Under the pieces are notes generated by a model. That model did no database searches. It was not told the DNA's origin and saw nothing but the letters and a program-made list of their open reading frames with translations. From assembly GCF_030209445.1 (NCBI RefSeq), contig NZ_JARVSD010000014.1:186001-250000 (forward strand): DNA of 64,000 nt, written 5' to 3'. Shown one piece after another: positions 54,235 through 63,178 of this stretch (its first letter is position 1; each line of letters opens with the position of its first letter). Origin of the DNA: Promicromonospora sp. MEB111. Its GTDB lineage: Bacteria > Actinomycetota > Actinomycetes > Actinomycetales > Cellulomonadaceae. Position numbers and translations under genes: made by a program.

Positions 54235-55554
54235 ATGACACACGTACTCAGGCCGCGTGCGGCGCGGGGCATCGAGCTGAGCCGGCGGTCGTTCGGCGTG
54301 CTCGCCGCGACGTCCGTGCTGGCCGCCTGCGCGGGCAGCCCGCGGACGGCGAGCCCGGACGCCCCGCTGCGGGTGCTCGCGATCAACCACGTCTGGACGC
54401 AGGCGATCAGCCGCTACCTCCCCGAGCTCGAGGAGCGGATCGGCCGCCGGGTGTCGCTGCGGATGCTCACCGCCGACCAGCTCACCTCCAGCTTCAACGT
54501 CAAGCTCAACGCGTCGGCCACCGACATCGACGTCATGACGATCCGGCCGCTGCAGGACCAGATGATGTTCGCGCGCAACGGCTGGATCGCCGACCTCACC
54601 GACCGGGTCGAGGGCGACGCCGACTACCGCTGGACCGACTTCCAGGACGCCCCGCGCGAGCGGTCGATCACGGCCGGCGCCGCCGTCAGCGTCCCCGTCG
54701 TGACCGAGCGTCCCGCGCTGTACTACCGCAAGGACCTGCTCGAGGAGTTCGGCGGGGCGCCGCGGACCCTCGACGACATGCTCGACATCGCCCTGGAGAC
54801 CCAGCGGCGCAGCGAGGGCTTCTTCGGGTTCGTCGGCCGCGGCCAGCGGGCCGGCGCCGTCACCCAGTGGTCGAGCTTCCTCTACTCGTTCGGCGGTGAC
54901 TTCACGGTCGACGGCCGGTCGGGCATCGGCACGCCCGAGGCGGTCGCCGCCTACGAGTTCTACGGTCGCCTGCTGCACGACGCCGGACCGCCCGGGGCCA
55001 CCAACATGAGCCTCGAACAGGCCATGCCGATCTTCGCGCAGGGCAAGGCCGCGATGTATGTCGACGCCGACGCGATCTACAGCAACTTCCTGGACACGTC
55101 GATCTCCACCGTCACCGACACCGTGGGCTTCGCACCTTTCCCCGCAGGTCAGGCGGGTTCCGTGCCGCACAACATCCCGTCGTGGAGCCTGGCGGTCAAC
55201 GAGTTCTCGCTGTTGCGGGACGACTCGTGGGAGTTCCTGCGCTGGGCCTCCAGCCCCGAGATGGTGGCCCGGCTGCAGTCCGAGGGCATCCCGGGCGCGC
55301 GCCAGTCGGTCTGGGACGACCCGGCGACGCTGGCGTCCTTCCCCGCCGACCTCGCCGAGGCCATGCGGATCAACGCGGCCAACGGCGTGGGGCACGACCG
55401 CCCCGAGGTGATGCAGGTGGGCCGCGCCCGCGACATCGTCGGCCGCCCGCTGGTCTCCGGCATCGTCGGCGAGGACGTCGCGTCCGTGGCCGCCGACGCG
55501 GACGCCGAGTTCAACGACTTCCTCGTCCGCGACAACCGTCAGCAGGAGTTCTGA
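54235..55554 (+). CDS. Sugar ABC transporter substrate-binding lipoprotein (MalE/SBP_bac_1)
   Basis: A 439-residue binding lipoprotein. Twin-Arg RRSFGVLAATSVLAAC ends in lipobox LAAC. The mature part reads LRVLAINHVWTQAISRYLPELEERIG, then DIDVMTIRPLQDQMMFARNGWIADLTD and VPVVTERPALYYRKDLLEEFGG, a typical family 1 sugar binder. It heads an operon with two permeases and a mannonate dehydratase, controlled by a FadR-type operator. A uronate, aldonate or oligouronide ligand is inferred. Confidence 0.92.
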   Translation: MTHVLRPRAARGIELSRRSFGVLAATSVLAACAGSPRTASPDAPLRVLAINHVWTQAISRYLPELEERIGRRVSLRMLTADQLTSSFNVKLNASATDIDVMTIRPLQDQMMFARNGWIADLTDRVEGDADYRWTDFQDAPRERSITAGAAVSVPVVTERPALYYRKDLLEEFGGAPRTLDDMLDIALETQRRSEGFFGFVGRGQRAGAVTQWSSFLYSFGGDFTVDGRSGIGTPEAVAAYEFYGRLLHDAGPPGATNMSLEQAMPIFAQGKAAMYVDADAIYSNFLDTSISTVTDTVGFAPFPAGQAGSVPHNIPSWSLAVNEFSLLRDDSWEFLRWASSPEMVARLQSEGIPGARQSVWDDPATLASFPADLAEAMRINAANGVGHDRPEVMQVGRARDIVGRPLVSGIVGEDVASVAADADAEFNDFLVRDNRQQEF

Positions 55555-56516
55555 TGACGACGACAACCACCCGCACCTCCACCGCCGGCGCCGCATCCAC
55601 CCGCCGTACCCGGTCGTCGGACACGCCGTTCGTGACCTTCGAGCAGGCGAACCGGCGCCTCAAGTGGGCGCTCCTCGCGCCCGCGCTGGGCTTCGTCGGG
55701 CTGATGATCGCGTTCCCGCTGGTCTTCACCATCAACCTCAGCCTCACCGACGCCTTCGGCGCCGTGAACGCGGGCAACTCCTACGTGGGCCTGCAGAACT
55801 TCGCCGACGCCCTCACGGACACGCGCCGGTTCTGGCCCGCCGTCGGCCGCACCGTCACGTTCACGCTCGGCGCCGTCGTGCTGGAGACCGTGCTCGGGCT
55901 GGCCCTGGCGATGCTCATGCGCAAGGCGTTCCGCGGCATGGAGATCGTCCGCACCATCCTGATGGTGCCGCTGCTGGCCACCCCGGTCGCGATCGGCATC
56001 CTGTGGATGCTCATCCTCGACCCGACCAACGGCATCGCGAACCACCTGCTCGGGTTCGTGGGCATCCCGCCCCAGGAGTTCCTGGGTTCGGTGTCGCAGT
56101 CGCTGCCCACCCTCATGCTCATCGACGTGTGGCAGTGGACCCCGATGATGACCGTGCTGCTGCTCGCGGGCCTGACCACGCTGCCCGAGGAGCCCGAGGA
56201 GGCCGCCCGCGTGGACGGCGCGAACGCCTGGCAGCGGTTCGTCCACATCATCCTGCCGATGCTGCGCACCACGATCCTGACGGCACTGGTGCTCCGCGGC
56301 GTCGACGCCCTGAAGACGTTCGACCTGATCTACGCGACCAAGGGACCCGGCGGCGGCTCGGACTTCGAGGCCGAGACACTGAACGTCTACGCCTACGGCC
56401 TCACCTTCGACTACCAGGAGTACGGCCTGGCCTCCGCGGTGCTGGTCCTGTTCACGCTGTTCATCGTCGCGATCGTGGTCGTGCTGCGGCGCCGCACCGA
56501 GAGGAGCGCCTCGTGA
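55554..56516 (+). CDS. Sugar ABC transporter permease (MalF-like)
   Basis: A 320-residue permease with six helices ([26 protein letters not shown] onward) and EAA loop [33 protein letters not shown]. The ATG overlaps the upstream stop as TGATG, and its own stop overlaps the next GTG. It pairs with the following permease. As in the operon at 31 kb, there is no ATPase gene, so a shared ATPase is expected. Confidence 0.93.
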
Positions 56517-57328
56517 GCGCCACCACCACCTTCCGCGCCCTGCGCGGCGTGCTGATCACCGTCGTGTGCGCGGTGATCGCGCTGCCGATCATCTGGATGA
56601 TCGCCGCCGCGTTCAAGACGAACGTGCAGGTCACCGATCCGACGGTCGGCCTGGTCTTCTCGCCCACCTGGGACAACTTCCGGAACGTCCTGGCCGACGG
56701 CGCCCTGGCGCACTCGCTGCTCAACTCGCTGGTCGTCGGCGTCGTCTCGACGGCACTGAGCGTGGTCGTCGCCGTGCCGGCCGCCTGGGCGGTGGGCCGG
56801 TTCCGCATGCGCCGCACCGGCTCGATCGTGCTCGTGGCCCGCATCATCCCGGCCATCTCGCTGCTCGTGCCCTGGTACTACATGTTCGCGCAGCTCGGCC
56901 TGGTGGGCAGCCACCTGGTGCTGATCCTGAGCCACATGTTCGTCTCCGTGCCGCTGATCCTGTGGATCATGATCGGCTTCTTCGAGGGCCTGCCGGTGGA
57001 GCTGGAGGACGCCGCACGGACCGACGGCCTGTCCGCCTTCGGAGCGTTCCTGAGGATCGCGCTGCCGCTCGCGGCGCCCGGCACGGCCTCCGCCGCGGTG
57101 CTGGCGTTCATCTTCAGCTGGAACAACTTCATCTTCGCGCTGATCCTCGCGGACGAGCGCACGATGACGATGCCCGTGCTGCTGTTCAACTTCATGTCCT
57201 ACGCCAGCACCGACTGGGGCGGGCTCATGGCGGCCGCGACCCTCATGACCGTGCCGGTGCTGCTCGCCGCCGTCTTCGGGCAGCGTTTCCTGGTGGCGGG
57301 CCTCACCGCCGGCGCCACCAAGGGCTGA
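56513..57328 (+). CDS. Sugar ABC transporter permease (MalG-like)
   Basis: A 271-residue permease with helices from [23 protein letters not shown] and EAA loop [32 protein letters not shown]. The GTG overlaps the upstream stop as GTGA, with GAGGAG eight bases before it. Forms a channel with the preceding permease for the ligand of the lipoprotein at 54235. Confidence 0.93.
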
Positions 57329-57372
57329 CGCCCGCACTCCTGCTTCCCTCACCACCGACAGAAGGTTTCCGC

Positions 57373-58587
57373 ATGAAGATCGTCGACGCGAAGGTCGTCG
57401 TCACCTCGCCCGGCCGCAACTTCGTCACGCTGCAGATCACCACGGACGACGGGGTGACCGGCCTGGGCGACGCCACCCTGAACGGGCGCGAGCTGGCCGT
57501 CGTCAGCTACCTGCGCGACCATGTCGCGCCGCTGCTGGTCGGCCGCGACCCGCACCGCATCGAGGACACCTGGCAGTACCTGTACCGGGGCGCCTACTGG
57601 CGGCGGGGTCCGGTGACGATGGCCGCGATCGCCGCCGTCGACGTCGCCCTGTGGGACATCAAGGCCAAGGTCGCCGGCCTGCCGCTGTACCAGCTCCTCG
57701 GCGGCGCCAGCCGCGACCGGATCCGCGCCTACGGGCACGCGAACGGCTCCAGCCTGCCCGAGATCTTCGACTCGGTACGGGCGCTGCAGGAGCGCGGCTA
57801 CCAGAGCATCCGCATCCAGAGCGGCGTGCCAGGCCTGCAGTCGGTCTACGGCGTCCACACGACGACGTCGGACGACGGCTCCGCGCCGGACGCGCTCGCC
57901 CGGCCGGCCGTCGAGGACTGGGACACGGCCGCCTACCTGCGGTACATCCCCCAGGTCTTCGAGGCCGTGCGCAACGAGTTCGGCCCGGACCTGCCGCTGC
58001 TGCACGACGCGCACCACCGGCTGTCCCCGATCGAGGCCGCCCGCCTCGGCAAGGACCTGGAGCCGTACGACCTGTTCTGGCTGGAGGACTGCACCCCCGC
58101 CGAGGACCAGGAGGCGCTGCGTCTGGTGCGGCAGCACACGACCACGCCGCTGGCGATCGGCGAGGTGTTCAACACCGTGTTCGACTACCAGACGCTGATC
58201 GACGACCGGCTCATCGACTACGTGCGCTCCGCCGTCACGCACTTCGGCGGCGTCAGCCCCATGAAGAAGCTGTTCGACTACGCGGGCCAGCGCGGGATCA
58301 AGAGCGCGATCCACGGGCCGGAGGACATCTCGCCGGTGGGCATGGCCGCCGCGCTGCACCTCGACCTGGCGATCCACAACTTCGGCATCCAGGAGTACTC
58401 CGGGCACACGGACCTCACCAACGAGGTCTTCCGGCACGCGTACACCTTCGAGGACGGCCACCTGCACCCGGGCGAGGCCCCCGGCATCGGCGTCGAGCTG
58501 GACGAGGAGCTCGCGGCCGCGCACCCGTACGTGCCCGGGTACCTGCCGGTCAATCGGCTCCAGGACGGGTCCGTGCACGACTGGTGA
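57373..58587 (+). CDS. manD: D-mannonate dehydratase family enolase-superfamily enzyme
   Basis: A 404-residue ManD/RspA-type enzyme. Diagnostic segments are [43 protein letters not shown] (metal Asp and catalytic His region), [19 protein letters not shown] and [17 protein letters not shown]. ManD enzymes convert D-mannonate (sometimes D-gluconate) to 2-keto-3-deoxygluconate, the intermediate also reached by KduD; some family members have low or no activity. GAAGG precedes ATG 57373. It closes the third ABC operon, which makes this a uronate/aldonate uptake and breakdown unit. Confidence 0.88.
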
Positions 58588-58609
58588 CGCGGATCACCCC
58601 GGCGTGACC

Positions 58610-58636
58610 CCATCCGGGAACGCCCCGGCGTCGAAC
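58610..58636 (+). promoter_or_regulatory. SigK-type promoter of sigK
   Basis: CCATCC (58610-58615), 15-bp spacer, TCGAAC (58631-58636). It closely matches the mycobacterial SigK pattern CCATCC...CCGAAT and implies autoregulation. Confidence 0.85.
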
Positions 58637-58665
58637 CCGGTGTGCAGAGACGATCGGAGGACGTT

Positions 58666-59265
58666 GTGGGGCAGACTGGTTCGGTGGCCTCACCACCTGT
58701 CCGGACCTCGTCGCGGGACACCATCGACGCACTGCTCACGGCGTGCGCCGGGGGCGATCCGGCGTCGTTCACGCCCGTGTACGACGCGCTGGGGCCGGTA
58801 GCCTACGGCGCGTCGCTCGGCGTCCTGCGCGACCCCGACCATGCGGCAGAGGTGACCCAGGAGGTGATGGTGGAGGTGTGGCAGACGGCTTCGCGGTTCG
58901 ACGCCGCGCGCGGCTCCGCCCGCACCTGGGTCGCCACGCTGGCGCGCCGGCGTGCGGTCGACCGCGTGCGGTCGGAGCAGGCGCACCGGGACCGCGACCA
59001 GCGGGAGACGGACCTGCGCACCAACGAGTCCGAGCGGGACGTGGTGGTCGAGGACGTCGAACGGCGCCTCGAGGGATCCGCCGTGCGCCGCTGCATCGAG
59101 GGGCTCACCCCGACCCAGCGCGAGGCGGTGGTGGTCGCGTACTACGGCGGCCTGACCTATCGCGAGGTCGCCGAGCGGCTCGACAAGGCCCTGCCGACCG
59201 TCAAGAGCCGGATCCGCGACGGCCTCAACCGGCTCCGGGACTGCCTGGAGGTGCGTCGTGGCTGA
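58666..59265 (+). CDS. sigK: ECF sigma factor SigK
   Basis: A 199-residue group IV sigma factor. Region 2 is LRDPDHAAEVTQEVMVEVWQTASRFDAARGSARTWVATLARRRAVDRVRSEQ, and region 4 GLTPTQREAVVVAYYGGLTYREVAERLDKALPTVKSRIRDGL. The neighbouring rskA, fasciclin lipoprotein and dipZ genes are the known SigK partners of mycobacteria. GGAGG five bases before GTG 58666 decides the start; GTG 58642, near the predicted transcription start, is a leaderless alternative. It overlaps rskA. Confidence 0.93.
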   Translation: MGQTGSVASPPVRTSSRDTIDALLTACAGGDPASFTPVYDALGPVAYGASLGVLRDPDHAAEVTQEVMVEVWQTASRFDAARGSARTWVATLARRRAVDRVRSEQAHRDRDQRETDLRTNESERDVVVEDVERRLEGSAVRRCIEGLTPTQREAVVVAYYGGLTYREVAERLDKALPTVKSRIRDGLNRLRDCLEVRRG

Positions 59266-60031
59266 CGAGACGACCAGCCCGGGCGGCGTGCCCGGCGACG
59301 TCTGGGACCTGCTGCCCGGATACGCCCTCGACGCGCTCGACGACACCGACCGCGAGGCGGTCGAGCGGCTCCTCGCCGCCGACGTCGACGCCCGCCGTGC
59401 GCTCGACGAGTACCGCGACGTCGTCGCGTCGTTCGTCGTGGAGGCGGAGCCGCCCGCGGCACTGCGGGCCGGGGTGCTCGCCCAGGTGGCGAGCACGCCG
59501 CAGGTCCGGGACCTGACGGTTCCCGCTTCCGCGGACGGTCCGACGCCGGGCGGCGGCGCCGTCGTCGACCTCGCCGCCCGCCGCCGTCGTCGGCGCTGGG
59601 GCACCGCGGTGGCCGCGGTCGCCGCCGCGGCCGCGATCGCCGTCCCGACGACGATCGCCGTGCAGGTGACCGCCGAGCGCGACCGGCTGCGCGAGCAGGC
59701 CCAGGTGGTCTCGGAGATGCTGGCCGATCCTGACAGCGCGATCCTGCGCGGCGCCGTCGAGGGTGGAGGCGAGGCGTCGGTGCTGGTCGCCGGCGACGAC
59801 ATGCTCTTCCGTGCCGAGGGGCTGCCGGAGCTCGACCCGGACCAGGCGTACCAGCTCTGGGTGGTGGAGGGCGACGGCAGCGTCTCCTCGGCGGGCCTGC
59901 TCGCCCTGCACGACGGCCAGGCGACGTCGCTCGTCCGGGGCCGGGAGGGCGTGGGCATGGCCGTGTCGGTCGAGCCGGAGTCGGGCTCCGAGCAGCCGAC
60001 GTCGGCGCCCGTCGTGGTCCTGGGCGCCTGA
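59258..60031 (+). CDS. rskA: Anti-sigma-K factor RskA
   Basis: A 257-residue membrane anti-sigma factor: N-terminal sigma-binding domain (DVWDLLPGYALDALDDTDREAVERLLAADVDARRALDEY), one transmembrane helix (WGTAVAAVAAAAAIAVPTTIAV) after an RRRRRR stop, and the extracytoplasmic RskA domain (GLPELDPDQAYQLWVVEGDGS...GVGMAVSVEPESGS). It holds SigK at the membrane until regulated proteolysis releases it. The GTG overlaps sigK by eight bases. Confidence 0.93.
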   Translation: MADETTSPGGVPGDVWDLLPGYALDALDDTDREAVERLLAADVDARRALDEYRDVVASFVVEAEPPAALRAGVLAQVASTPQVRDLTVPASADGPTPGGGAVVDLAARRRRRRWGTAVAAVAAAAAIAVPTTIAVQVTAERDRLREQAQVVSEMLADPDSAILRGAVEGGGEASVLVAGDDMLFRAEGLPELDPDQAYQLWVVEGDGSVSSAGLLALHDGQATSLVRGREGVGMAVSVEPESGSEQPTSAPVVVLGA

Positions 60032-60071
60032 CCCGGTCCCAGCCGTGCCGATCCGGCCCGTACGTCCGGAC

Positions 60072-60111
60072 ACGAGAGAGCGCCCGTCCGGGAGGACGGG
60101 CGCTCTCTCGT
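60072..60111. terminator. Bidirectional terminator hairpin
   Basis: An 18-bp perfect stem (60072-60089 with 60094-60111) around GGGA, between the convergent rskA and fasciclin genes. Confidence 0.88.
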
Positions 60112-60127
60112 CGGTACTGCGGGTGGA

Positions 60128-60811
60128 TCACATCGGGGGCATCAGCACCGAGTCGACGAGGTAGACGGTCGCGTTCTGGGTCATGACGCCACCGCAGATC
60201 ACGTTCGCGTCGTTCACCTTGAGGTCGTCGCCGCTGCCGGTGACCTCGAGGGTGTCGCCCTGCACGGTGGTCTGCTCGCCGACCACCTGGTCGGGCGTGA
60301 GCTGGCCGGGCACCACGTGGTACGTGAGGATCGAGGTCAGCAGGTCGCCGTCCGTGGACAGGGTGTCCATGGTCTCGGCGTCGATCGCCTTGAAGGCGTC
60401 GTCGACCGGGGCGAACACGGTGAACTCGTCACCGTTGAGGGTGTCGACGAGGTTCACGTCGGGGTTGACCTCACCGCTCACGGCCGAGACGAGGGTCGTC
60501 AGCAGCGGGTTGTTGGAGGCAGCCACGGCCACCGGGTCGGTGGACATGCCCGTGACGGAGCCGGGGCCGTCCGGCACCTCCTCGGCGTAGGCGGCACAGC
60601 CGGGGCCCACGAGGTTCGCGGCGGGGTCGACCGCGGCGTCGTCCCCGGCGGGGGTCTCCTCCTCCATCGAGTCGGCGGCCTCCTCGGACGCGGACGTGTC
60701 CTCCGACCCGGTGTCTCCGCCCGACGAGTCCATGCTGCAGGCCGAGAGGCCGAGCATGGCCAGCGTGGCGATACCGGCGACGGCGTAGGACGTGCGGGTT
60801 CGAGCGTTCAT
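60128..60811 (-). CDS. Fasciclin-domain lipoprotein (MPT83/MPT70-like)
   Basis: A 227-residue lipoprotein. The signal peptide ends in LSAC, followed by an acidic Ser/Glu/Asp linker, then [18 protein letters not shown] and one FAS1 domain ([43 protein letters not shown]...[14 protein letters not shown]...[28 protein letters not shown]). This is the mycobacterial MPT70/MPT83 architecture with its paired Cys. It is driven by its own SigK-type promoter at 60866-60892. It is probably a surface protein; the family's molecular role is unclear. Confidence 0.93.
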
Positions 60812-60865
60812 CGGTCTCTCCTCGGTGTGGCGTCACCCCGCGTCTCACGGGGCGTCTTGACCGGG

Positions 60866-60892
60866 GTTCGGAGCCGTCGGCTCCCCGGATGG
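60866..60892 (-). promoter_or_regulatory. SigK-type promoter of the fasciclin gene
   Basis: On the minus strand CCATCC (60892-60887), 15-bp spacer, CCGAAC (60871-60866). The leader is about 48 nt with GAGGAGAG before the ATG. Confidence 0.88.
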
Positions 60893-60952
60893 GGGTCGGG
60901 GCGCACGAGTTTTCCCAGGCCTCCGACGTCCTGTCCGTACCTGTCCGGCGAC

Positions 60953-60979
60953 CCATCCGGAACGGGCCGCACACCGAAC
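60953..60979 (+). promoter_or_regulatory. SigK-type promoter of dipZ
   Basis: CCATCC (60953-60958), 15-bp spacer, CCGAAC (60974-60979). It ends seven bases before the dipZ ATG, so the dipZ message is probably leaderless. Confidence 0.88.
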
Positions 60980-60986
60980 CGGGCAC

Positions 60987-62729
60987 ATGGGAACCCTCAT
61001 CGTCATCGGCCTTCTCGGTGGCCTGATCACCGGAATCTCGCCGTGCATCCTCCCGATGCTGCCGGCCGTCTTCTTCGCGGGCGGAGTCCAGGGCGCACGC
61101 GACCGGACAGGCGGTGAGGGCCGGACGTCCCTGCGGCCCTACCTCGTGATCGCGGGCCTGGTCCTGAGCTTCAGCTTCTTCACGCTGCTCGGCTCCCTGC
61201 TGCTGTCCGTGCTCGGCCTGCCGCAGGACCTGCTGCGCTGGGCGGGGATCACGCTGCTGGTGCTGCTGGGCATCGGCATGATCGTGCCCCGGTTCGAGAT
61301 GGTCCTGGAGCGGCCCTTCCAGCGGGTCGCCGCGTTCGGGGCCAAGCGGGGCGCGGCCCGGCAGGACCGGGGCGCCTTCATCCTCGGCCTCGGCCTCGGC
61401 GTGCTCTACGTGCCGTGCGCCGGACCGGTGCTCGCGGCGATCACGGTCGCCGGCGCCACGGGCAACATCGGGGTCGAGACGGTGGCGCTGACCGTGTCGT
61501 TCGCCGTCGGCGCGGCGCTCCCGCTGCTCCTGTTCGCCCTGGCCGGACGCCAGATCGCCGAGCGGGTCCAGGCCTTCCAGCGGCACACCAAGGCCATCCG
61601 CACCGGAGGCGGCATCGTCGTCATCCTCCTGGCGATCGCGCTGGCGTTCAACGTGCCCGCGGCGATCCAGCGGCTGCTCCCGGACTACACGGGCGCGCTC
61701 CAGCAGCGCATCGACTCCTCGGAGACGGTGCGCGAGGCGCTCGACCTCGGCGGACTGGTGACCGACGAGAATCGCGAGCTGTCCAACTGCTCGAACGGCG
61801 CGCCCGTCCTGGAGGACTGCGGCACGGCGCCGGAGATCCGAGGTATCGACAGGTGGCTGAACACGCCGGACGGCAAGGCGCTCCAGCTCGAGGCGATGCG
61901 CGGCCAGGTGGTGCTCGTCGACTTCTGGACCTACTCGTGCATCAACTGCCAGAGGTCGATCCCGCACATCAGTGCCTGGTACGAGAAGTACGCCGACGTC
62001 GGCAAGGGTTTCGAGGTGGTCGGCGTGCACACGCCGGAGTTCGCCTTCGAGCGCGAGACGCGCAACGTGATCGCGGGTGCGAAGGACCTCGGCGTCACCT
62101 ACCCGATCGCCCAGGACAACTCGTACGCGACCTGGACGGCGTACCGGAACCGGTACTGGCCCGCCCAGTACCTCATCGACGCCGACGGCACCGTGCGGCA
62201 CATCCGCCTGGGCGAGGGCGGGTACCAGCGCACCGAGAACCTGATCCGCGAGCTGCTCGCCGACGCCAACCCCGGCGTCGAGCTGCCCGGGGCGACCACG
62301 GTCCAGGACGCGACCCCGCTCGACGAGATCACGCCCGAGACGTACTTCTCCATCAAGCGCGTCATCAACTACTCGGGCGAGCCCCGGTACGCGGCGGGCC
62401 GCCAGGAGTTCACGCTCGCGGCCGAGCAGGAGCAGGACACGTTCTCGCTCGGCGGCACGTGGGACGTCGACTTCGAGGGTGCGGAGGCGGTGTCCGACGA
62501 CGCCCGCGTGCGCCTCGCGTACCGGTCGGCCGACGTCTTCGTGGTGCTCGGCGGCGAGGGGACCGTCAGGGCGACGGTCACGGCCGACGGCGAGGAACGG
62601 ACCCGCGACATCGACGTCTCCGGGAACCCGCGGCTCCACCCGATCCTGGAGGGGGACGAGCCGACCGAGGGCCTCGTCGACCTGAGGGTGCCGGACGGCG
62701 TGCAGGTCTTCACCATGACGTTCGGCTGA
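60987..62729 (+). CDS. dipZ: DipZ: CcdA-redoxin-beta-domain membrane protein
   Basis: A 580-residue protein with three parts: an N-terminal CcdA-like electron carrier with about six or seven helices and its Cys pair (Cys20 in GISPCILPMLP, Cys144 in YVPCAGPVL); an external thioredoxin-like domain with CINC (Cys318/Cys321) in FWTYSCINCQRSIPH; and a C-terminal beta-sandwich (YFSIKRVINYSGEP to the end) seen in mycobacterial DipZ. It passes cytoplasmic reducing power to exported thiols. It shares a SigK-type promoter with the Cys-bearing fasciclin lipoprotein gene, which makes that protein a natural partner. Confidence 0.94.
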   Translation: MGTLIVIGLLGGLITGISPCILPMLPAVFFAGGVQGARDRTGGEGRTSLRPYLVIAGLVLSFSFFTLLGSLLLSVLGLPQDLLRWAGITLLVLLGIGMIVPRFEMVLERPFQRVAAFGAKRGAARQDRGAFILGLGLGVLYVPCAGPVLAAITVAGATGNIGVETVALTVSFAVGAALPLLLFALAGRQIAERVQAFQRHTKAIRTGGGIVVILLAIALAFNVPAAIQRLLPDYTGALQQRIDSSETVREALDLGGLVTDENRELSNCSNGAPVLEDCGTAPEIRGIDRWLNTPDGKALQLEAMRGQVVLVDFWTYSCINCQRSIPHISAWYEKYADVGKGFEVVGVHTPEFAFERETRNVIAGAKDLGVTYPIAQDNSYATWTAYRNRYWPAQYLIDADGTVRHIRLGEGGYQRTENLIRELLADANPGVELPGATTVQDATPLDEITPETYFSIKRVINYSGEPRYAAGRQEFTLAAEQEQDTFSLGGTWDVDFEGAEAVSDDARVRLAYRSADVFVVLGGEGTVRATVTADGEERTRDIDVSGNPRLHPILEGDEPTEGLVDLRVPDGVQVFTMTFG

Positions 62730-62737
62730 CGGCGCCG

Positions 62738-62771
62738 GCCGTCCGCACACGCTTCGTGCCGTGCGGACGGC
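62738..62771. terminator. Terminator hairpin between convergent genes
   Basis: GCCGTCCGCAC (62738-62748) pairs with GTGCGGACGGC (62761-62771), between dipZ and the thioesterase gene. Confidence 0.75.
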
Positions 62772-62776
62772 AGGGC

Positions 62777-63178
62777 TCAGGCTGCCGGGTGGACCAGCCG
62801 CACGGTCTGGAGCACGTGCACGCACAGCTCGCCGGTCTCGTCGGTCACCCGGACCTCGACGAGCACCTGGCGGCTGCTCGCCCGGACGGGCACGGCCGTG
62901 GCGGTGGCCTGCCCCGTCAGGGGGCGCAGGAAGTGCGTGGTCGAGTCGACGGTCGCCGGCAGGGCGCCCGGCCCGCCGTTGACGGACGCGCAGACGGCGG
63001 CGACCCCGTCCGCCAGGCCCATGAGGGCCCCGCCGTGCAGGCCGCCGCCGACCGTGGACAGCGGCTGGGAGTACGGCAGCCGTCCGACGACGGCCTCCGG
63101 CGTGATCCGGTCGAGCTCGACGCCGAGCGTCCTGACGAACGGTGCTGCGGCGTAGACGTCGTCCGCGGTCGGTGTCAT
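62777..63178 (-). CDS. PaaI-type hotdog thioesterase
   Basis: A 133-residue single hotdog-fold protein: VGRLPYSQPLSTVGGGLHGGALMGLADGVAAVC holds the GGxxHGG-like core, then VDSTTHFLRPLTGQATATAVPVRASSRQVLVEVRVTDETGELC. It probably hydrolyses an acyl- or aryl-CoA in the cytoplasm. GAGAGGA precedes ATG 63178. It is divergent from a tetR gene, and the 81-bp gap contains clustered dyads, so TetR control is likely. Confidence 0.87.
   Translation of the reverse strand: MTPTADDVYAAAPFVRTLGVELDRITPEAVVGRLPYSQPLSTVGGGLHGGALMGLADGVAAVCASVNGGPGALPATVDSTTHFLRPLTGQATATAVPVRASSRQVLVEVRVTDETGELCVHVLQTVRLVHPAA

Follow-up and report, generated by a model that had tools for sequence, protein, structure and literature searches.

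Does the sigK locus at the end of a 64,000-nt stretch of the Promicromonospora sp. MEB111 genome (positions 186,001 to 250,000 of contig NZ_JARVSD010000014.1, hereafter the window) hold the whole regulon of the sigma factor SigK, or do further targets lie elsewhere? The window ends with four genes: sigK, rskA, a minus-strand gene for a Fas1 lipoprotein, and dipZ. A sequence-only reading of this stretch had described them as a complete SigK regulon in one locus with three matching promoters. Our analysis favored an autoregulated SigK-RskA locus with an additional, unlinked target gene that encodes a DUF4383 membrane protein (probability about 0.87). The genes, the promoter sites and their conservation, their co-occurrence with sigK, a transcription start (+1) signal, and a fourth site were all computed. 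The genes of the locus and their promoter sites are as follows.

58610..58636, plus strand: SigK-type promoter of sigK-rskA, CCATCC-N15-TCGAAC, exact match, 28.6 bits, predicted +1 at 58644
58666..59265, plus strand: sigK, extracytoplasmic function (ECF) sigma factor of 199 amino acids (aa), from the NCBIfam SigK model, the alignment and a GGAGGA sequence
59258..60031, plus strand: rskA, membrane anti-sigma factor, GTG start, PF10099 (E=1.5e-19)
60128..60811, minus strand: MPT83/MPT70-like Fas1 lipoprotein gene with a lipobox-like Cys25, PF02469 (E=1.4e-27)
60866..60892, minus strand: SigK-type promoter of the Fas1 gene, CCATCC-N15-CCGAAC, exact match, 37.4 bits, predicted +1 at 60858
60953..60979, plus strand: SigK-type promoter of dipZ, CCATCC-N15-CCGAAC, exact match, 30.6 bits, predicted +1 at the A of ATG 60987
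60987..62729, plus strand: dipZ, from Pfam domains and cysteine positions

All three promoters carried exact CCATCC-N15-[CT]CGAAC matches with a spacer of 15 at fitting distances from their genes, as had been noted from the letters alone. The start of rskA overlapped the sigK stop codon (59263–59265) by eight bases and no weight-matrix site stood before it, which agreed with the earlier view that rskA has no promoter of its own. The sigK frame opens with GTG at 58642, and GGAGGA at 58656–58661 precedes a second GTG at 58666. The second of these, GTG 58666, is the likely sigK start: conservation of the protein sets in at 58666, and the first GTG would contain the predicted +1 (58644).

The sigK product scored 232.8 bits against the NCBIfam SigK subfamily model (cut-off 226), and its best PDB match was M. 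tuberculosis SigK (4nqw chain A, E=4e-45). Its Cys143 and Cys193 (Cys151 and Cys201 in the 207-aa frame) aligned with cysteines of that structure, and both were at least 90% conserved in an alignment of 19 sequences. RskA, encoded next to sigK, showed a cytoplasmic N-domain, one transmembrane-like segment and a C-terminal RskA_C domain (PF10099); the N-domain model PF22618 (RskA_N) fell short of its cut-off (22.4 bits versus 27), and chain B of 4nqw, which is RskA, was matched weakly (E=0.045). No cysteine was found in RskA. An MPT70/83-like Fas1 protein and DipZ are encoded downstream of SigK-type sites, with MPT70 (1nyo, E=2.7e-61) and DipZ (5cyy, E=1.1e-114) as the respective best PDB matches. 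According to Pfam, DipZ comprises a DsbD-like membrane domain (Cys20 and Cys144), an extracytoplasmic thioredoxin-like domain (C318-x-x-C321) and a C-terminal Thioredoxin_10 domain.

In the 64-kb window, no fourth CCATCC-N14..17-[CT]CGAA was present, and nothing beyond the three sites exceeded 8 bits with a weight matrix trained on 109 sites of other genomes (training median 35.4 bits, minimum 18.9). The pattern CCATCC-N15-[CT]CGAA occurred six times in 6.23 Mb, and three of these copies stood within 2.4 kb at the locus. One of the three others, C22, was located 36 nt upstream of an unlinked gene for a DUF4383 membrane protein and scored 38.7 bits, above the three locus sites and the training median. 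The remaining two were rejected as promoters. The copy at C4:6313 (below 9 bits) lies inside a gene resembling a histidine kinase by eye, and that at C34:168411 (17.4 bits) is on the opposite strand and spans the junction between a SatD-like gene and the gene that follows it, covering the end of the former and the start of the latter. This copy across the SatD-like gene end (L022 1501–1527) was letter-identical in another genome (G001), probably because the gene is common to both. A looser scan, with up to two mismatches, was uninformative (578 matches versus 203 for the backward pattern); 26 one-mismatch matches were listed, and none of the 25 with scored loci exceeded 10 bits.

DUF4383 genes were surveyed in 13 genomes of the genus, nine with SigK (SigK+) and four without (SigK-), and 22 copies were found in 12 genomes. 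A site above 20 bits preceded eight copies, one in each of eight of the nine SigK+ genomes, that of strain MEB111 included, and three of these eight sites carried CAATCC. In the tree of all 22 copies, the eight site-bearing ones formed one group (support 91/91), with diverged spacers in their promoters. The site-bearing subclade was therefore found in 8/9 SigK+ and 0/4 SigK- genomes of the genus. All four copies in SigK- genomes were without a site, two of them scanned over the whole fetched stretch as the start anchor was not found. Loss of the promoter from a retained DUF4383 gene in SigK- genomes was considered and rejected, because the tree placed the SigK- copies in other subclades. With a fourth SigK-type promoter of 38.7 bits, kept in a subclade, before an unlinked gene, the regulon can no longer be called complete in one locus.

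The alternative that the locus is exactly the whole regulon, the DUF4383 site being a chance match and the extra sites of relatives background, was considered unlikely. It agrees with the finding of a single further promoter-like exact site in 6.23 Mb, with the absence of a site from 10 of the 18 DUF4383 copies that the genus has in its SigK+ genomes, and with the small regulon of M. bovis, for which the account in PMC10540498 gives 10 genes in two loci; however, it leaves unexplained a site that outscores both the training median and the three locus sites and that recurs, with diverged spacers, in all eight members of a subclade distributed like sigK. Among 144 distinct sites, 16 also had a DUF4383 gene downstream, and in a distant actinomycete bin (L256) such a gene was the immediate upstream neighbor of sigK. 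Moreover, SigK+ genomes had on average four times as many sites away from sigK as SigK- genomes did.

The last point comes from counts across the family of Promicromonospora. A genome was taken as SigK+ if one of 14 scored candidates matched at E<=1e-50, which held for 115 of 221 genomes; under this threshold remoter copies (e.g., G033, E=1.2e-44) count as absent. The exact CCGAAC motif occurred 388 times in the 221 genomes, versus 12 times for the backward pattern in a hand-counted control. There were 2.97 sites per genome in the 115 SigK+ and 0.43 in the 106 SigK- genomes; at least two sites were found in 101/115 versus 10/106, and at least one in 110/115 versus 34/106. Linkage accounts for part of this contrast, since as many as three sites stand at sigK itself. 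In the three genera with listed sites, the count was therefore limited to sites that lay 20 kb or more from sigK or on a different contig; these numbered 75 in 48 SigK+ genomes (1.56 each) versus 19 in 53 SigK- genomes (0.36 each); SigK+ genomes in at most 10 contigs (n=18) had 1.50 sites each away from sigK. With spacers of 16–19, the same hexamers were about equally frequent per spacer in SigK+ (0.54) and SigK- genomes (0.52). The excess of the motif is specific to a spacer of 15 and to genomes with sigK, and the three locus sites are not chance matches.

The sites were also kept at the locus itself. Among relatives, 38 loci had a SigK-like match, and rskA, fas and dipZ were present as well in 15 of them; three sites were present in 10 of these 15 and two sites in the other five, and a site preceded sigK in 14, the spacers having diverged. 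The remaining loci included distant paralogues without the cluster, and several had no site at all. The suggestion that promoter recognition and the core target set are conserved in a non-mycobacterial actinobacterium was borne out by these sites, which were kept in relatives and tracked sigK. Transcription of these genes would then depend on SigK, as the co-occurrence of motif and sigK suggests.

Several observations weigh against a SigK regulon of this extent. Five of the 115 SigK+ genomes had no exact site; among the 106 SigK- genomes, 34 had at least one and 10 of these at least two. Sites in close relatives are not independent. Besides the DUF4383 copies without a site in SigK+ genomes, one genome (G011) has sigK and no site-bearing copy, and the SigK- genomes keep only other DUF4383 subclades, so that what was seen is a joint presence of gene and sigK. 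A different ECF factor that co-occurs with SigK could also read the motif. Such a factor, with overlapping specificity and SigK as one of several users, would account for the two to four sites kept in 10 of the 106 genomes without a SigK match at the cut-off, and these genomes can be expected to encode other ECF factors; but the site stands before sigK itself in 14 of the 15 four-gene clusters, and the motif is nearly sevenfold less abundant without sigK, fourfold away from the locus. According to PMC7509140 (citing Veyrier 2008), moreover, SigK orthologues from other species are active on the mpt70 promoter of M. tuberculosis. We regard this explanation as very improbable.

The autoregulated locus with an unlinked target was further characterized by an extended motif, derived from 144 distinct sites of fetched loci; many are orthologous and not independent draws. 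Bases outside the search pattern were conserved: C before CCATCC (0.90), G after it (0.76) and GC at spacer positions 13–14 (0.87 and 0.85). A pyrimidine-purine step was found at offsets 6–7 after the motif (0.90 and 0.92), and in the named loci, whose family membership was assigned from record titles, it was present in 40/40 family sites and 28/29 sites outside the family. An ATG stood at offset 7 in 30/144 sites (rows read by hand), as a gene start in 26 and within the leader in four. The 26 gene starts belonged to 18 dipZ, five short LuxR-type, two GtrA and one sortase-like genes, and all 18 distinct dipZ sites had ATG at this offset. Since a gene-start ATG is found there in 26 of 144 sites, the +1 appears to fall on its A, which would give leaderless mRNAs. 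From this signal, +1 was predicted at 58644 for sigK, 60858 on the minus strand for the Fas1 gene, and 60987 for dipZ, whose mRNA is predicted to be leaderless.

The mycobacterial promoter motif, as given in the sequence-only reading, is CCATCC...CCGAAT. In the 221 family genomes, the last base of the -10 element was C (388 CCGAAC versus 20 CCGAAT), whereas outside the family it was mostly T (25 T, 4 C, 1 A and 1 G in the named loci). The data show that C at this position is a trait of the family.

The genes downstream of the 144 sites, assigned by tblastn, were 33 sigK, 26 Fas1, 18 dipZ, 16 DUF4383, nine CHRD, eight short LuxR-type, two GtrA and one sortase gene, with 31 left without assignment; the CHRD, sortase, GtrA and LuxR identities rest on Pfam for one example each. 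Four congeners had sites with a gene downstream for a protein resembling the molybdopterin oxidoreductase of strain MEB111 (PF00174), and two other family genomes showed the same by eye, so that further sites in relatives probably precede molybdopterin-oxidoreductase genes. In strain MEB111 itself, such a target was rejected, because no promoter-like site with up to two mismatches stood before any of its four PF00174 genes; the stretches around them held one 1-mismatch N14 match (L173) and a few 2-mismatch matches at other spacers. The further sites and the linkages, such as the DUF4383 gene beside sigK in the actinomycete bin, support a wider SigK regulon. With odds only slightly better than even, we suggest that SigK of this family runs a dispersed envelope program of Fas1, DipZ, DUF4383 and genus-dependent genes, partly through leaderless mRNAs that begin at the SigK start site; the genus-dependent genes would be those for a CHRD surface protein with sortase, a sulfite-oxidase-like molybdopterin protein, GtrA and a short LuxR-type regulator.

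Other sites were observed in relatives. In records of Cellulomonas, Actinotalea, Nesterenkonia and Oceanitalea (L229, L233, L240, L242, L244, and L289), a site preceded a gene for a protein of 430–485 aa, with a signal-peptide-like start and a duplicated domain, directly upstream of sigK (~1.4–1.7 kb). One Promicromonospora genome had a second sigK-rskA copy (L055, G006:C2:890409-898017) ~65 kb from the first; this copy had a SigK-type site of its own, the stretch fetched around it gave no match to Fas1 or dipZ, and a GtrA-like gene with a site lay ~8 kb away (L159). In three genomes of one family genus, sites stood before similar-looking hydrophobic proteins (L179, L182, and L185), of which that of L182 had no Pfam match.

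How does this locus compare with known systems? According to PMC10540498, mycobacterial SigK targets are restricted to two loci. The SigK-RskA regulon of M. tuberculosis and M. bovis shares with the present one SigK with both cysteines, RskA, an MPT70/83-like Fas1 lipoprotein and DipZ. It differs in having a sigK locus and a separate mpt83-dipZ-mpt70 locus, instead of one locus plus an unlinked DUF4383 site, and in the last base of the -10 element, which is C in the family of Promicromonospora. The flanking genes also differ, being those for ManD dehydratase, thioesterase and a TetR regulator here, not the ufaA1 group mentioned in PMC10540498. With the mpt83-sigK-rskA cassette outlined in PMC7509140, the locus shares the core genes and the SigK site before the mpt83 gene; here, in contrast, dipZ is added, the Fas1 gene is downstream and convergent, and each unit has its own SigK site. 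RskA without zinc ligands and a helix-1 YALDAL that equals the AS19-1 consensus by eye resemble the ECF19/AS19-1 group as characterized in PMC7406223; no structural difference was seen from that description, and the target set here looks wider. Group placement varies between papers, since PMC7509140 puts M. tuberculosis SigK in ECF18. The core is a member of a known regulon, and the wider dispersed targets, the leaderless starts and the -10 base shift set this variant apart.

The sequence-only reading had also proposed that the single locus may resemble the ancestral arrangement. Among the best 80 named loci of a larger scan, a biased sample from which frequencies in Actinobacteria are not readable, rskA, fas and dipZ lay within 6.5 kb of sigK in 18, and 17 of these belonged to the family of Promicromonospora, the other being Kribbella catacumbae (L279), in which dipZ, Fas1, an rskA-like gene and sigK-rskA stand together. 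In 13 of the best 80, elsewhere than the four-gene cluster, a molybdopterin oxidoreductase gene accompanied sigK, rskA and Fas1. An ancestral single locus was therefore not established, and such an ancestor is possible. That the cluster is instead a secondary, family-specific gathering is plausible, at somewhat less than even odds: it fits the concentration of four-gene loci in one family and the pairing of Fas1 with molybdopterin oxidoreductase elsewhere, while the complete set in Kribbella, the Fas1-dipZ linkage in M. bovis (order mpb83-dipZ-mpb70 in PMC10540498) and the biased sampling count against it. In PMC7509140, an ancestral MPT83 and a minimal mpt83-sigK-rskA cassette with a SigK site are already proposed (citing Veyrier 2008), and conservation of the SigK site in Actinobacteria is already stated.

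Two further elements were found between the genes.

60072..60111, no strand: long inverted repeat in the gap between rskA and the Fas1 gene, which converge; fold of 60061–60125, -45.3 kcal/mol
60834..60854, minus strand: hairpin in the Fas1 mRNA leader (60858–60812), starting 4 nt after the predicted +1 at 60858; z=-2.02

The inverted repeat is a possible bidirectional terminator; it was not called in the terminator scan, and neither sigma-70 promoters nor intrinsic terminators were found in 58500–62800. A leader hairpin with z<-1 was found in 22 of 26 Fas1 leaders, that of the window included, with varying loops, and it showed modest covariation. The covariation count used 23 of the 26 leaders. 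Left out were L066, whose sequence is identical to that of L063; L072, which is 136 nt long and has two overlapping sites; and L189, which at z=-0.14 speaks against a hairpin. Of 500 shuffles, one equaled the score and one the number of double-changed cells, while 21 equaled the double-changed pairs and 190 the pair types; a slide by -2 gave five double-changed pairs versus four. Because the free energy of the leader was not lower than that of neighboring GC-rich stretches, support for the hairpin comes from the shuffles and the fixed position only. No known RNA family reached its gathering score in the leader. Upstream of sigK, 54235–58587 held apparent sugar ABC transporter genes and the ManD-type D-mannonate dehydratase gene, with no SigK-type site before them.

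How SigK is released and what the regulon does for the cell can be proposed from these results. As PMC7509140 summarizes for mycobacteria, RskA inhibits and modulates SigK and is subject to proteolytic release, M. tuberculosis SigK being released by reduction and proteolysis, and the signal is still unknown. Here, the membrane-bound RskA would hold SigK. Release by reduction and proteolysis, by analogy with M. tuberculosis, is a reasonable proposal, because both SigK cysteines are present and RskA is of the zinc-free type. Released SigK with RNA polymerase would recognize ACCCATCCG-N11-GC-N-CCGAAC and start transcription at a purine, the eighth nucleotide after the motif. The predicted transcripts would be those of sigK-rskA, of the Fas1 gene, with a leader that is short and structured, of dipZ, without a leader, and of the distant gene for the DUF4383 membrane protein. 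DipZ would carry electrons through the membrane to its own extracytoplasmic thioredoxin-like domain, and the output would likely be a surface Fas1 lipoprotein and redox upkeep of the cell envelope. Among possible roles, such upkeep is supported best, with moderate confidence, by the DipZ cysteines, Fas1, and the molybdenum oxidoreductase, CHRD protein and sortase of relatives.

In mycobacteria, the role of MPT70/MPT83, like the SigK signal, is open. Soil relatives that have a sharply marked SigK regulon, together with congeners that lack sigK, offer a system for tests of the regulon, its signal and its role. The partners that recur suggest envelope redox chemistry, and the dispersed program, if true, would tie the MPT70/83 proteins to extracytoplasmic redox repair.

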